Assembly: GCA_003222205.1 (NCBI GenBank)
Contig: QHVC01000051.1
Location: forward strand, 1 to 39,242
Source of the DNA: Gemmatimonadota bacterium
GTDB taxonomy: Bacteria > Gemmatimonadota > Gemmatimonadetes > Gemmatimonadales > GWC2-71-9
DNA length: 39,242 nt
Reading direction: 5' to 3'
The notes below the pieces were generated by a model, which was given only the letters and a program-made list of their open reading frames with translations, had not been told where the DNA came from and ran no database searches. The position numbers and the translations under genes are program-made. Below, piece by piece: positions 2 through 27,211 of the stretch (positions within the stretch are counted from its first letter, which is position 1; each line of letters opens with the position of its first letter).

Positions 2-2512
2 ACGGCCGCCGTAAACGTCGGACTGGGCGCCGCGGCGATCGCCCTGGCGCGGCCCATCCCGGCGCTCCCGGCCACGATTGACCCCGGGCGCGAGCCCGGG
101 GTACCGCGCCACCGGGACGCGCTCCACACCGTGGCGCTCGTGCTGCTCGGCTGCACCGCCTTCGCCTCCCTGCTCGACGAGATCGCCTGGACCCGCGTGC
201 TGGTAATGGTCGTGGGCGGATCCACCTACGCATTCACCCTGGTCCTCGTGGTGTTTCTGTTGGGAATCGGGCTGGGGAGCGCCCTGGTGGCCAGGCGCAG
301 CACTGAGCGCGCCGTGACGGCGGCGTCGGCCGGGCTCGCCCAAGGGGTGACGGCGGCGGGCGCCGCGGGGCTGTTCGTCTTCTTCTCGTGGCTGCCGCTG
401 TACATCCTCGCCGTGTTCCAGATCGACGGCCTCGGTCCCACGGCGCGGCTGCTGCTGATGGGACTCGCCGTCGGTGCCGTCGTGCTCGTGCCCGCGCTGG
501 GGATGGGGATGACGTTCCCCCTGCTCACCGATCTCGTCGCGCAGCCGGGCGAGGCGCGCGCGCGGGACGTCGGCGCCGCGTACGCGCTCAACACCGTCGG
601 CAGCATCATCGGCGCGGCGCTCACCGGCTTCGTTCTCGTGGTGGCGCTCGGCACCGACCGCACGCTGCGCCTGGGGCTGGCGATCAACGGGGTCGCGGCC
701 CTCGCCCTGGTGGCCCTGGCGGCGCGGGGCGTGCCGGAGGGCTCCCCGGAGCACCGCCGCCTGCGCCTGCGAGTGCTGGGCGGCGGCGTCCTCGGGGCGT
801 GCGGCTTGGTGGTGGCCCTCGTGGTGCCGCACTGGAGCAGCCGGTTCATCGATCTGGGGCCCACGATTTACGGCCGCGGGAAGATGTCGCCGGCGGAGCG
901 CCGCGGATTCCTGGATCATGCGGGCGGGCGGCAGTTGGCGTTCCGCGAGGGGTGGAACGCGACGGTGTCGGTCTGGGAGAGCGCGGCCGGCCGAACGCTC
1001 AAGGTGAACGGCAAGGCCGACGCGTCCGACCACGGAGACATGGATACGGAGATCCTCACCGGCCTCGCGCCCGCGGCAGCGCGGCCGAACGCCTCGTCCG
1101 CCCTCGTGATCGGCTTCGGGAGCGGGGTTTCCGCGCGCACGCTCGCCGATGTCCCGGGGATGCGACGCGTTCGCGTGATCGAGATCGAGCCGGCCGTGCT
1201 GCGGGTCGCCGGGCTCTTCGCGGGGGTCAACGACTCGGTGCTCGGCCGCCCTACGGTGACGGCCGTGGTCGACGACGCCCGCAGCGCGCTGCAGCTGGAT
1301 GGGGCGGCGTACGACGTCGTCGTCTCGGAGCCCAGCAACCCCTGGGTCGCGGGAGTGGCGACGCTGTATACCCCGGAGTTCTTCCGCATCGTCAGACGCC
1401 GGCTCGCCGACGATGGAGTGTTTTGTCAGTGGGTGCAGCTCTATCAGCTGCCGCTGCCGGTCGTCGCGACGATCGTCGCGAACGTGCGAGACGTGTTCCC
1501 GCACGCGGAGCTGTGGTACAGCTCGCCGTGGGACTTGATGGTCGTTGCCTCAGGGCGCCCGCTCCGCTACGATCGCGCATGGCTCGAGCGCCTGTTCGCG
1601 GATCCGCGCATCGGCGCATTGGGTCGGGAATACCTGAACGTGAACCGGCCGGAGCAGTACGTCGGCCACCTCGTGATGGGGGACGCCGGCACCGCCCGCC
1701 TTGCCGGCCGCGGCGCCATCCTGCACCGCGACGACCGGCCCCAGCTCGAGTTCGTCGCGGCCCGCAGCTTCCTGGACTCGGACAGCCCCGGCGAGGTGTT
1801 CGATTCCCTCGTGGCGATCGGTGCGGCCGCCGATGCCGCCGCGCCGCCCGAGGCGCTCGCGTGGGCGTTGAGTTCGCGCCGCGGCGACCCCGCCGGCCTG
1901 GAGTATGTGGAGGTGGCGCGGCGCGCGCATCCGCGCGACGACCGCTGGACCTTCCACGTCGCGGCGATGCGGATGTCGCTCGGCGACTCCTCACTCGCCG
2001 ACTCGGCCCTCCCGCGCCTCGCCCGCGCCGGCGACCCCGAGGCGTTGCTCCTCGCCGGCATCGTCGCAGCGAAGCGCGACCAGCGGGAGCGCGCTCGCCG
2101 ACTGCTGGGGCGGGCGATCGCCGCCGGGGCGTACGAGGCGGAAGCGCGAGCGGTGCTCGCGGCCCTGGCCGCCCGCGATCGACGGTGGGGGGAAGCCAGC
2201 GTCGAAGTGCGGCGCGCGCTCGCCGCTGTAGGGAGCACCTTCCGGCACCCGTACCCACGGGACTGGCTCGGGGAGGCCCTGACGGCGCTGTCCCTGGACG
2301 GCCCCGCACCGCGGGCAGACAGTCTTCTCACAATGGCGTTGGAGACTCGTCCCGGCTGGGCGTCGCTCTACGAGCTCGAAGGACTGGTGGAGCTCCGCCT
2401 GGGCCGCTGCACGGAGGCCGCCGAGCGGTTTCTGACCTTGCTGGATTTCGGTATGGCGCGGCCGGACGGGCCGGATCTCGTCGCCCGGTGTCGCCGCGGC
2501 CTCAGCCCTTAG
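2..2512 (+). CDS. Membrane-anchored spermidine-synthase-like protein with C-terminal TPR-like region (5' partial)
   Basis: The reading frame is open to the first base of the window, so the true start lies upstream. The GTG at 131 falls inside the membrane region and is not a convincing start. Visible are several hydrophobic segments of a major-facilitator-like half (to about base 830). A Rossmann-type aminopropyl/methyltransferase domain follows, with glycine motif VIGFGSGVSARTL (near 1105-1145), acidic VIEIEP, and the family hallmark SEPSNPWVAGVATLYTPEFF (near 1327-1383). An alanine-rich helical C-terminus resembles TPR repeats. This architecture is that of the fused MFS/spermidine synthase family, common in high-GC environmental bacteria and mostly uncharacterised. 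True polyamine synthesis cannot be claimed. It converges on the kinase gene, and the two stop codons share four bases (2509-2512). Confidence 0.8.
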   Translation, partial: TAAVNVGLGAAAIALARPIPALPATIDPGREPGVPRHRDALHTVALVLLGCTAFASLLDEIAWTRVLVMVVGGSTYAFTLVLVVFLLGIGLGSALVARRSTERAVTAASAGLAQGVTAAGAAGLFVFFSWLPLYILAVFQIDGLGPTARLLLMGLAVGAVVLVPALGMGMTFPLLTDLVAQPGEARARDVGAAYALNTVGSIIGAALTGFVLVVALGTDRTLRLGLAINGVAALALVALAARGVPEGSPEHRRLRLRVLGGGVLGACGLVVALVVPHWSSRFIDLGPTIYGRGKMSPAERRGFLDHAGGRQLAFREGWNATVSVWESAAGRTLKVNGKADASDHGDMDTEILTGLAPAAARPNASSALVIGFGSGVSARTLADVPGMRRVRVIEIEPAVLRVAGLFAGVNDSVLGRPTVTAVVDDARSALQLDGAAYDVVVSEPSNPWVAGVATLYTPEFFRIVRRRLADDGVFCQWVQLYQLPLPVVATIVANVRDVFPHAELWYSSPWDLMVVASGRPLRYDRAWLERLFADPRIGALGREYLNVNRPEQYVGHLVMGDAGTARLAGRGAILHRDDRPQLEFVAARSFLDSDSPGEVFDSLVAIGAAADAAAPPEALAWALSSRRGDPAGLEYVEVARRAHPRDDRWTFHVAAMRMSLGDSSLADSALPRLARAGDPEALLLAGIVAAKRDQRERARRLLGRAIAAGAYEAEARAVLAALAARDRRWGEASVEVRRALAAVGSTFRHPYPRDWLGEALTALSLDGPAPRADSLLTMALETRPGWASLYELEGLVELRLGRCTEAAERFLTLLDFGMARPDGPDLVARCRRGLSP

Positions 2513-4344
2513 GGCGCGGGGCGGTCTCCGAGAAGGTCGCGGATCTCCCCGGCCGCCGCGATAGCGTGGTCGACATCGCGCGACAGTGAGCGCGCTTGTT
2601 GCGTCGCGTGGGTCAAGTCGCTGAGCACGGCGGCGACTCCCGCCGACTTGAGCCGCAACAGGTCGAAGCGGACGTTCTGCATCGCGATCACGCACGAATC
2701 CAGCTGCTCCGCGACGCCGCGCCGCCGCGTCACCAGATCACCCAGCGCCTGTCGCTGTCGCTCGAGCATGCTCACCTGCCGGTCCCGCTCCAGGCTCTCG
2801 GGCTGCCGGCGGGCCCCTTCCAGCTTCTCGTCAATGCGCGCCAGCGCGGCGGGATCCACGTCCCCGGTCATTGTCGCCAGCATGCGGGCCAGCTCTTCGG
2901 CGCGGTGCACCAGCTTGTCGACCGTGTCCACCACGTCGGGCAGCAGCTTCCGCTCGGAGGAGGGCAGCCGGTCCATGATCTTGAGGATCGCCTGGCGGTC
3001 GAGCCGCACCTGGGTGACCGCCTCGAGGTGCCGGCCGAACTCTTCCGCCGTCGGCGGTGCCAGCTGGCCGCCCCGGCGGCCGCTCGTCCCGAGCCGCGCT
3101 ACGGCGCCGTCGGGCGCCACCGGACGATGCAGGATGTCGCGCCAGGAGTAGCCGGCCTCCCACAGCTTCCAGAACCGGGGGAGCACCCCGAACGCGCCCC
3201 AGATCGCGCAGCCGATCACGGCCCAGGACAGGTGCCCGGCGTTCAGCACGTCGAGGACAGCCACGCCGCTGAACACCGACGCCCAGGTGACGAAGGCGTG
3301 GCGCGTGCGGCGCACGATCTCCGGCTCCCCGCCTTGCCCGCGCGGGGCGAGGTCCCGCCGCTGCGAGCGGCGCGAGAGCTCGCGGTTCCGCGCGGCGGGG
3401 GGGAGTGGAGGTAGATCCTCCGGCATCCGCCGCAGGGCGGTACCCGGGCGGCTCGGCATCGAGCGGCGCGGGCGGTAGGGTGCCGCGCTCCGCGATTCCA
3501 GCGCCCGCCGCAGCGCGTCCGCGGTGGGCCAGCGGCTCTCCGGCTCCTTTTCGAGACAGCGCATCACACAGGCCGCCAGGTCTTCGGGACAATCGGGGCG
3601 CTTCTCGGTGATCATCGGCGCCGGCTCGGTGATGTGCTTCATGAGGATGCCGGGCACCGTCGGCGCGCGGAACGGCAGCTCGCCGACCAGCACTTGGTAG
3701 CCGACCACCCCTAGGCTGTAGATGTCCGACCGGCCGTCGATCTCCCGGTCGCCGGCGGCCTGCTCCGGGCTCATGAAATGCGGCGTCCCGATCGCCACCC
3801 CCGTGGCCGTCAGCGTTCCCCCGGTGGCCGAGGACAGCGCCTTGGCGATGCCGAAATCCGTCACGACCACCCGGCCGCGGCTTCCCTCGAGGAGGATGTT
3901 GTCCGGCTTGACGTCGCGGTGGATGATGCCGAGCGCATGGGCGGCGCTCAGCGCGTCGGCGGTTTCCGACAGGATGCGGCGGACCTCCTCCGGCGGGAGG
4001 CGGCCCCGGCGCTTCAGCCGCGCCGACAACGGCTCGCCGTCCACGTAGGCCATGACGAAGTACACGATGCCGTCCGGCCCTTCACCGACCGCGTGGATCG
4101 GCACGATGTTGGGGTGGGAGAGCCGAGCCGCCGTCTCGGCTTCGCGGAGAAACCGCGTCCGAATGCCCTCCTGGAACGCCAATTCCGGCGGCAGCACCTT
4201 GATGGCGACTCGCCGCTTGAGCCGTTCGTCTCGGGCGTTATAAACGACCCCCATGCCCCCGCGTCCGATCTCCCCCTCGACCGTATAGCTGGTCCCGAGG
4301 GCCTGGGTCAGACGCGCGATGAGTGATCGATCCGCTTCGTTCAC
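2509..4344 (-). CDS. Serine/threonine protein kinase, Pkn type, with two membrane helices and coiled-coil C-terminus
   Basis: A complete Hanks-type kinase domain fills residues about 20-285: glycine loop GEIGRGGMGVVY (24-35), catalytic lysine in VAIKV (Lys49), catalytic loop HRDVKPDN (142-149, Asp144), DFG (163-165) and SPE (192-194). It phosphorylates Ser/Thr on substrate proteins at the cytoplasmic membrane. Residues about 349-367 and 372-389 form two hydrophobic helices joined by a short turn, like the small 2TM domain found in such kinases. About 210 residues of charged, coiled-coil-prone sequence follow. There is no extracellular PASTA domain, so the sensor is probably the coiled coil or the membrane itself. 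The start is GTG at 4344, with no strong ribosome binding site visible. It is divergent from lon, 233 bases apart. Substrates are unknown. Confidence 0.88.
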   Translation of the reverse strand: MNEADRSLIARLTQALGTSYTVEGEIGRGGMGVVYNARDERLKRRVAIKVLPPELAFQEGIRTRFLREAETAARLSHPNIVPIHAVGEGPDGIVYFVMAYVDGEPLSARLKRRGRLPPEEVRRILSETADALSAAHALGIIHRDVKPDNILLEGSRGRVVVTDFGIAKALSSATGGTLTATGVAIGTPHFMSPEQAAGDREIDGRSDIYSLGVVGYQVLVGELPFRAPTVPGILMKHITEPAPMITEKRPDCPEDLAACVMRCLEKEPESRWPTADALRRALESRSAAPYRPRRSMPSRPGTALRRMPEDLPPLPPAARNRELSRRSQRRDLAPRGQGGEPEIVRRTRHAFVTWASVFSGVAVLDVLNAGHLSWAVIGCAIWGAFGVLPRFWKLWEAGYSWRDILHRPVAPDGAVARLGTSGRRGGQLAPPTAEEFGRHLEAVTQVRLDRQAILKIMDRLPSSERKLLPDVVDTVDKLVHRAEELARMLATMTGDVDPAALARIDEKLEGARRQPESLERDRQVSMLERQRQALGDLVTRRRGVAEQLDSCVIAMQNVRFDLLRLKSAGVAAVLSDLTHATQQARSLSRDVDHAIAAAGEIRDLLGDRPAP

Positions 4345-25846: not shown

Positions 25847-25895
25847 CGGGCTGCGGCGCAAGCTCGGGCGTGTGGCGCGTCGTGTCAAGCGCCGC

Positions 25896-25901
25896 TATCG
25901 T
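25896..25901 (+). promoter_or_regulatory. Candidate minus-10 hexamer TATCGT close to the selenoprotein start
   Basis: TATCGT ends seven bases before the ATG at 25909, and no Shine-Dalgarno sequence is present. This would place transcription start at or very near the ATG, giving a leaderless mRNA. There is no clear minus-35 box. Confidence 0.3.
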
Positions 25902-25908
25902 TGACGAC

Positions 25909-26142
25909 ATGCGTGTAACCATCGAATACTGCGTCGTTTGAAACTACGAACCCCGGGCCACCGGTCTGGCGGCCGAGATCCGCGGCGCCTTTCCGCACGC
26001 GGAGATCAAGTTCATCGAGTCCTCCGGCGGCGTCTTCGAGGTCGAGGTGGACGGCAAGCGCGTGTTCTCCAAGAAGGCACTCCGCCGTCACGCGGCAGCG
26101 GGCGAAATCGTCCGCCTCATCAAGGAATCCGCCGCGCGCTGA
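25909..26142 (+). CDS. SelW/Rdx-family selenoprotein (in-frame TGA = selenocysteine)
   Basis: A 77-residue protein read through TGA at 25939-25941. The N-terminus is MRVTIEYCVVUNYEPRAT, with the family's CxxU redox motif at Cys8-Sec11 on the first beta-alpha turn. The distal part FEVEVDGKRVFSKK matches the SelW/Rdx signature of a beta-hairpin ending in GK..xSKK, and the length is typical. Mammalian SelW has the same layout (YCGAUGY, then FEV..GK..HSKK). Family members are thioredoxin-like-fold thiol/selenol redox proteins, and the partner is unknown. A hairpin with loop GGUCU lies 21 nt after the TGA, as bacterial SECIS elements require. The ATG at 25909 lacks a Shine-Dalgarno sequence. The stop is one base before the pfkA GTG, so the two genes are surely co-transcribed. 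Expression requires selA, selB, selC and selD elsewhere in the genome. Confidence 0.88.
25956..25974 (+). promoter_or_regulatory. Bacterial SECIS element (SelB-binding hairpin)
   Basis: Arms GGCCACC (25956-25962) and GGCGGCC (25968-25974) pair with one A-C mismatch and enclose the five-base loop GGTCT (25963-25967). The loop starts 21 nt after the TGA. The E. coli fdhF SECIS has the same GGUCU loop core, about 18 nt after its UGA, and it is the part SelB contacts. The hairpin is inside the coding sequence, as is normal for bacteria. Confidence 0.75.
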
Positions 26143-26143
26143 C

Positions 26144-27211
26144 GTGAAGATCGCCATCTCGACCGGCGGCGGCGACGCGCCGGGGCTCAACGCCGTCATC
26201 CGCGGGGCCGTCCTCGCGGCCGTGCACCGCGGCTGGGAATGCGTCGGCATCCGCAAAGGCTACGACGGCCTCCTCGGGCAGGAGCAGCTCGTCCCGCTCG
26301 GTCCGGCCGAAGTCCGCGGCATCACCCACCTCGGCGGGACCATCCTCGGCACGACCAACCGCGGCGATCCGTTCCACTGGCGCGAGCGGCTGCCCGACGG
26401 CACCTGGGTGGAGCACGACCGCTCCGAGGAGCTGGTGCGCGCCTTCCGGGCCCACGGCATCGGCGCCCTGATCGCCATCGGCGGCGACGGCTCGCTGCGG
26501 ATCGCCCGCCACCTCCTCGATAAAGGCGTCGCGCTCGTCGGCGTCCCCAAGACGATCGACAACGACGTCGGCGGCACCGAGGCCACCTTCGGGTTCGACA
26601 CCGCCGTGCAGACTGCCACCGAGGCTATCGACAAGCTGCACTCGACCGCCGAGAGCCACGAGCGCGTGATGGTGGTCGAGGTGATGGGCCGGCACGCCGG
26701 CTTCATCGCTTTGAGCGCCGGACTCGCCGGCTCCGCCGACGTGATCCTCATTCCCGAGATTCCCTACGAGATGGATCGGGTGTGCAACAAGATCCGCCAG
26801 CGCGAAGCCGAAGGCCGGCACTTCAGCATGGTGGTCGTCGCCGAAGGAGCGGTGGCCAGGGGCGGCGAGGAGGTGTACCTCGACGCCGAGCGGCGACGGC
26901 TGGGCGGTGTCGGCGACCGGGTGGCCCGCGTCATCGAGCAGAAGACGGGCAAGGAGACCCGTACCCTGGTGCTCGGACACCTGCAGCGCGGCGGCAGCCC
27001 CACCACGTTCGACCGCCTGTTGGGTCTGCGGTTCGGCGCCGCAGCCGTGCGGCTGATCGCCGAGGGGAAGTTCGGGCACATGGTGGCGCTCGACCCGCCG
27101 ACGATCGTCTCCGTTCCGCTCGACGAGGCGCTGGCCGCGCCCAAGCGCGTGCCGCTGGACAGCGATTCGATCGCCACCGCCCGCGACCTGGGGATCTCGC
27201 TGGGGGACTAA
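26144..27211 (+). CDS. pfkA: 6-phosphofructokinase
   Basis: 355 residues. It phosphorylates fructose 6-phosphate to the 1,6-bisphosphate in glycolysis, in the cytoplasm. Motifs are STGGGDAPGLNAVIRG at the N-terminus, GGDGS (113-117), PKTIDND (135-141, catalytic Asp139), VEVMGRHAGF and the C-terminal LGHLQRGGSPTTFDR. The donor signature is mixed. Gly116 (E. coli Gly104) points to ATP, whereas Lys136 (E. coli Gly124) is the residue usual in the pyrophosphate and mixed-substrate clade, so the donor should be tested. The GTG start at 26144 is one base after the selenoprotein stop and has no close ribosome binding site, so its translation is probably coupled to read-through of that gene. Repeats follow the stop codon. 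Confidence 0.93.
   Translation: MKIAISTGGGDAPGLNAVIRGAVLAAVHRGWECVGIRKGYDGLLGQEQLVPLGPAEVRGITHLGGTILGTTNRGDPFHWRERLPDGTWVEHDRSEELVRAFRAHGIGALIAIGGDGSLRIARHLLDKGVALVGVPKTIDNDVGGTEATFGFDTAVQTATEAIDKLHSTAESHERVMVVEVMGRHAGFIALSAGLAGSADVILIPEIPYEMDRVCNKIRQREAEGRHFSMVVVAEGAVARGGEEVYLDAERRRLGGVGDRVARVIEQKTGKETRTLVLGHLQRGGSPTTFDRLLGLRFGAAAVRLIAEGKFGHMVALDPPTIVSVPLDEALAAPKRVPLDSDSIATARDLGISLGD

Follow-up and report, generated by a model that had tools for sequence, protein, structure and literature searches.

A probable SelW-like selenoprotein gene directly upstream of pfkA in a Gemmatimonadota genome

The locus lies in a window of 39,242 nucleotides, i.e. the whole stretch of DNA that was analysed, from a Gemmatimonadota bacterium. 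A forward-strand frame opens with ATG, passes an in-frame TGA at codon 11 and closes with a second TGA one base before the GTG start of pfkA (Table 1). Translation with the first TGA as selenocysteine (Sec) yields a product of 77 aa (MRVTIEYCVVUNYEPRATGLAAEIRGAFPHAEIKFIESSGGVFEVEVDGKRVFSKKALRRHAAAGEIVRLIKESAAR). Residues 8-11 form the motif CVVU, which is invariant in the alignment of relatives. A sequence-only reading of this DNA had proposed a read-through protein of 77 residues containing YCVVUNYEPRAT, in a frame that stays open up to the base before pfkA, and our translation agrees on both points. The same reading suspected that gene calling could pick a wrong antisense frame. Such a competing ORF, of 123 aa, is present on the minus strand at 25885-26256.

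Table 1. Features at the selW-pfkA locus, with their positions in the window and the evidence for each.
Feature	Position	Strand	Evidence
selW-like gene (Rdx family), 77 aa, predicted Sec at residue 11	25909..26142	+	translation, PF10262 and NF041051, alignment of relatives, structure model
In-frame TGA, read as Sec	25939..25941	+	invariant in 51 loci; TGC in G151
TGA, real stop of selW	26140..26142	+	sequence; frame of relatives ends nearby with TGA, TAA or TAG
pfkA, 6-phosphofructokinase, GTG start	26144..27211	+	PF00365 (351.6 bits), TIGR02483; one base after selW stop
Putative bacterial SECIS hairpin in coding sequence, GGCCACCGGUCUGGCGGCC	25956..25974	+	covariation, local fold, published constraints
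Possible -10 element TATCGT	25896..25901	+	conserved block GTGTCAAGCGCGACTATC, ends 7 nt before ATG

By a simple count over the whole window, 21 frames that open with ATG and span 75 codons or more carry one TGA within their first 30 codons. Hence, geometry alone means little, because early-TGA frames are common in this GC-rich window; unlike geometry, protein homology raises the selW frame above chance. The product scored above the cut-offs of Pfam Rdx (PF10262; 69.3 bits, cut-off 22.6, E = 3e-19), of the NCBIfam model NF041051 'SelT/SelW/SelH family (seleno)protein' (100.4 bits, cut-off 88) and of TIGR02174 (58.7 bits, cut-off 34.2), and its sequence matches include SelW-like PDB entries. 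An AlphaFold2 model, built from an alignment of 28 relatives, has the thioredoxin-like SelW fold with a pLDDT of 94.9. The best PDB matches of this model were SelW-related bacterial proteins; the Cys-type Rdx structures 2FA8, 2OBK, 3DEX and 2P0G share its fold at TM 0.85-0.89, and mouse SelW (2NPB) at a lower TM of 0.76, all with 22-34% identity to the window protein. The proposed membership of the SelW/Rdx family is thus confirmed by the family models and by the fold.

Bacterial SelW-like CxxU selenoproteins were described in 2005-2008 (PMC1088965, PMC1794560, PMC2398784), and are also listed in recent reviews. The window gene shares with these PF10262 proteins the family, the size, the CxxU motif, a UGA with a downstream bacterial SECIS (bSECIS) hairpin and the presence of SelD. 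It differs in its occurrence in Gemmatimonadota and in adjoining pfkA; a review gives further redox selenoproteins, Prx among them, as the reported operon partners (PMC13188914). For Campylobacter jejuni SelW, on CJnc60, a full-length product through the UGA was found by Ribo-seq and proteomics (PMC11955535). That protein comes from a different phylum, but it has a comparable length of 80-81 aa and a UGA read by tRNA-Sec, as predicted for the window SelW, whose best family model is NF041051 (SelTWH_Campy). That annotation can miss short selW genes was seen earlier in Epsilonproteobacteria (PMC4607533). Gemmatimonadota were not named in the reviews that we searched. A literature search for SelW with phosphofructokinase did not find the pairing described, which is no proof of novelty. 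Because bacterial CxxU SelW proteins have long been known and the Campylobacter SelW has been confirmed, the window protein is of a known kind; the unusual part is the conserved selW-pfkA pair in this Gemmatimonadota order.

Rdx matches were obtained in 48 of 61 genomes, comprising the window's genome and 60 others from its family and order. Every match listed from these 61 genomes contained TGA, and all but one had a single TGA. In the phylum set of 297 Gemmatimonadota genomes, 149 had an Rdx match; among the matches listed, about 146 genomes carried the TGA form, and Cys-only forms were found in G081, G151 and G212. We read out 51 selW loci (L052 and L147 being the same locus), and the TGA was invariant in all 51. 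Seen in one sequence only, an early stop could equally mark a decayed gene, with the TGA as a nonsense mutation or as a sequencing error in what was once a CxxC protein. However, the same TGA recurs in about 146 genomes among the matches listed, and the frame behind it is intact, conserved and under purifying selection (dN/dS 0.14-0.32 for codons 12-70 against near relatives). We therefore rejected a pseudogene or sequencing error, to which we assign a negligible probability. An eroded frame in relatives had been named as a sign against a selenoprotein; the TGA and the downstream frame are kept.

A few loci deviate in other ways. In G051 (L147/L052) the family sequence is lost after about residue 50 of selW, possibly by a frameshift, and in G017 (L149) SelW lacks a mid-protein part; the TGA and pfkA are retained in both. 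G030 has a second Rdx gene (L148; G030:C55, 623-862, plus strand) in which two in-frame TGA codons give a UxxU motif (EYUAEUEY). The hairpin-like stretch downstream of this motif is weak, with a fold z of -0.40. The UxxU form was seen in G030 alone among 395 genomes, and assembly contamination is possible because its contig measures 5.1 kb.

The window's genome, a 2.97-Mb assembly of 217 contigs that is 98.6% complete, was searched by family for the Sec machinery. A tRNA-Sec with anticodon TCA, SelA, SelB and SelD, whose presence the sequence-only reading had proposed to check, were all found. The selD gene of this genome (L018, minus strand, G000:C98) has an in-frame TGA as well, reading HGAGUACKLGP, and is probably a selenoprotein gene itself.

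Tallies from two phylum match listings relate the TGA form to selA. Among the matches listed, selA was present in 139 of 146 TGA-form genomes versus 83 of 151 others (Fisher p about 1e-16, a value that is only indicative because the genomes are not independent). The seven TGA-bearing genomes in which selA was not found (G002, G008, G038, G138, G201, G220, G226) are mostly fragmented assemblies. In G151, whose assembly is one contig rated 100% complete, the selW-pfkA pair reads CVGC with TGC (L150). SelB scored below the cut-off in this one genome, which was also absent among the genomes with SelA. Cys homologues, another point raised beforehand, thus include a relative without detectable selA or selB. 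The Agrobacterium Rdx homologue has CTQC at the Sec site.

These data also bear on the idea that an ordinary amino acid is inserted at UGA codon 11, through a code change or near-cognate read-through. Any decoding of UGA would give the same open frame, but selW itself ends in TGA, the genome holds tRNA-Sec with SelA, SelB and SelD, the TGA form tracks selA, and the position of codon 11 is Cys in homologues. We rejected this idea as highly improbable, in view of the Sec genes and of the TGC form where those genes were not found. Separately, six relatives without selA (G034, G043, G045, G047, G057, G058) were also without an Rdx match, which suggests that Sec use and selW were lost jointly.

Downstream of the UGA, positions 25956-25963 can pair with 25967-25974 around a GUC loop that begins 22 nt past the UGA. 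The stem contains one A.C mismatch and has a local folding energy of -9.5 kcal/mol. Published constraints on bSECIS elements comprise a G in the first two loop positions, a loop 16-37 nt after the UGA, a stem of 4-16 bp and an energy at or below -7.5 kcal/mol (PMC13188914). Apart from the single mismatch in the window copy, the hairpin agrees with these constraints in loop, spacing and local energy, and the energy was at or below -7.5 kcal/mol in 50 of the 51 sequences. Across 50 sequences, 96.5% of cells show pairing between columns 18-25 after the UGA and columns 29-36. At pair 18/36 both partners are third codon positions; GC, AU, CG and UA all occur there, and 18 sequences differ on both sides, so that the compensatory changes fall on synonymous sites. 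The covariation score was not reached by any shuffle and was lost when the partners were slid. In the 57-nt fold of the window copy by itself, another structure was preferred and the hairpin was not the minimum-energy form (z +0.48). Support for the hairpin is therefore purely comparative, because the window copy is mismatched and its 57 nt prefer another fold. In the TGC form of G151 the hairpin is degraded, with two base pairs and the first G of the loop gone. A check for a SECIS element near the TGA had been proposed earlier; the hairpin there is bSECIS-like, is conserved and covaries across relatives.

A scan of the whole window with Rfam yielded no hit that reached the gathering score. 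ARAGORN called a tRNA-Arg (gcg) at 3325-3406, inside a minus-strand protein kinase ORF (2509-4344). This is probably a false call, because Rfam has no tRNA there at gathering score.

We consider it very likely, with a probability of roughly 0.95, that the locus is a genuine SelW-like selenoprotein gene with Sec at UGA codon 11, encoding a redox protein that is probably expressed with pfkA. SelA and SelD would make Sec-tRNA-Sec, which SelB would bring to UGA codon 11, aided by the hairpin just downstream. The resulting SelW would be a small redox protein of the thioredoxin fold whose active site is CxxU. TGA conservation, the Sec genes, the hairpin and homology uphold the earlier claim of a functional selenoprotein as far as the gene is concerned; from these same data we infer the actual Sec insertion at codon 11 and the redox function.

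No PF00365 match other than pfkA was found in the window's genome. The pfkA gene comes next on the same strand in 44 of the 51 selW loci; of the seven where it is lacking, two stop near a contig end. Between the selW stop and the start of pfkA, 27 of the 44 linked loci show a distance of -10 to +4 nt (negative in 18), and the other 17 one of 11-98 nt. In another family of the class (f4), selW and pfkA are adjacent in four genomes too; the selW loci read from families f5, f7, f8 and f9 showed no pfkA within roughly 2 kb. Among 80 public pfkA loci (the best pfkA matches rather than a census, with flanks of up to 3 kb that are shorter at contig ends), a nearby Rdx gene was present in only three, all Gemmatimonadetes, and the linkage therefore looks lineage-specific. 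A plasmid collection returned two weak SelT/W/H homologues.

Since selW lies directly before pfkA, the redox protein and the phosphofructokinase are probably expressed together, and the arrangement may mean one shared mRNA with translational coupling. Of the co-translation claimed earlier, the conserved and often overlapping gene pair stands as observed, and coupling may go with it. The block GTGTCAAGCGCGACTATC with the possible -10 element occurs at the same distance from the ATG in L050, L034, L030 and L046 (altered) and farther upstream in L044; a consensus promoter scan of the region chose a different site. Close relatives carry a conserved TATCNT block just before the ATG, so the selW-pfkA mRNA may be leaderless or nearly so.

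The close spacing raises the question of whether the Sec-UGA could act as a selenium-dependent valve, in which translation without Sec stops at codon 11 and less pfkA is translated. The short or negative gaps in 27 linked loci fit such a valve, as do the status of pfkA as sole PF00365 gene and the lack of an obvious ribosome-binding site close upstream of the GTG of pfkA in the window, where the sequence AAGGA lies about 17 nt away. However, ordinary co-expression through adjacency alone explains the pattern, the gaps in 17 linked loci are wider, switching off the sole phosphofructokinase at low selenium would be costly, and selW lies apart from pfkA in some selenium-using relatives. We regard the valve as unlikely. 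Even less likely is a direct action of SelW on PfkA, e.g. by reduction or selenylation of a cysteine. Besides the conserved neighbourhood, this idea draws on position 214 of PfkA, which is Cys in 42 of 43 selW-linked proteins versus 23 of 77 unlinked ones, a contrast that shared ancestry may explain because the linked PfkA proteins all come from one lineage. Taken in either form, UGA gating or redox control by SelW, the proposal that selenium supply controls the sole PF00365 phosphofructokinase via selW is unlikely, and any regulatory tie of selenium to glycolysis is conjectural. The reading that we prefer is a SelW-like selenoprotein probably expressed with pfkA.

Ocean surveys found SelW-like proteins to be the most widespread selenoproteins (PMC2398784), and a 2026 review describes their exact function in bacteria as unknown (PMC13188914). 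A conserved glycolytic neighbour offers a concrete lead on this function, and relatives with the Cys form or without selW provide built-in comparisons. The locus also indicates that short selenoprotein genes of Gemmatimonadota are easily missed in routine gene calling. Selenium-dependent control of phosphofructokinase, tentative as it is, may now be put to the test in this phylum.
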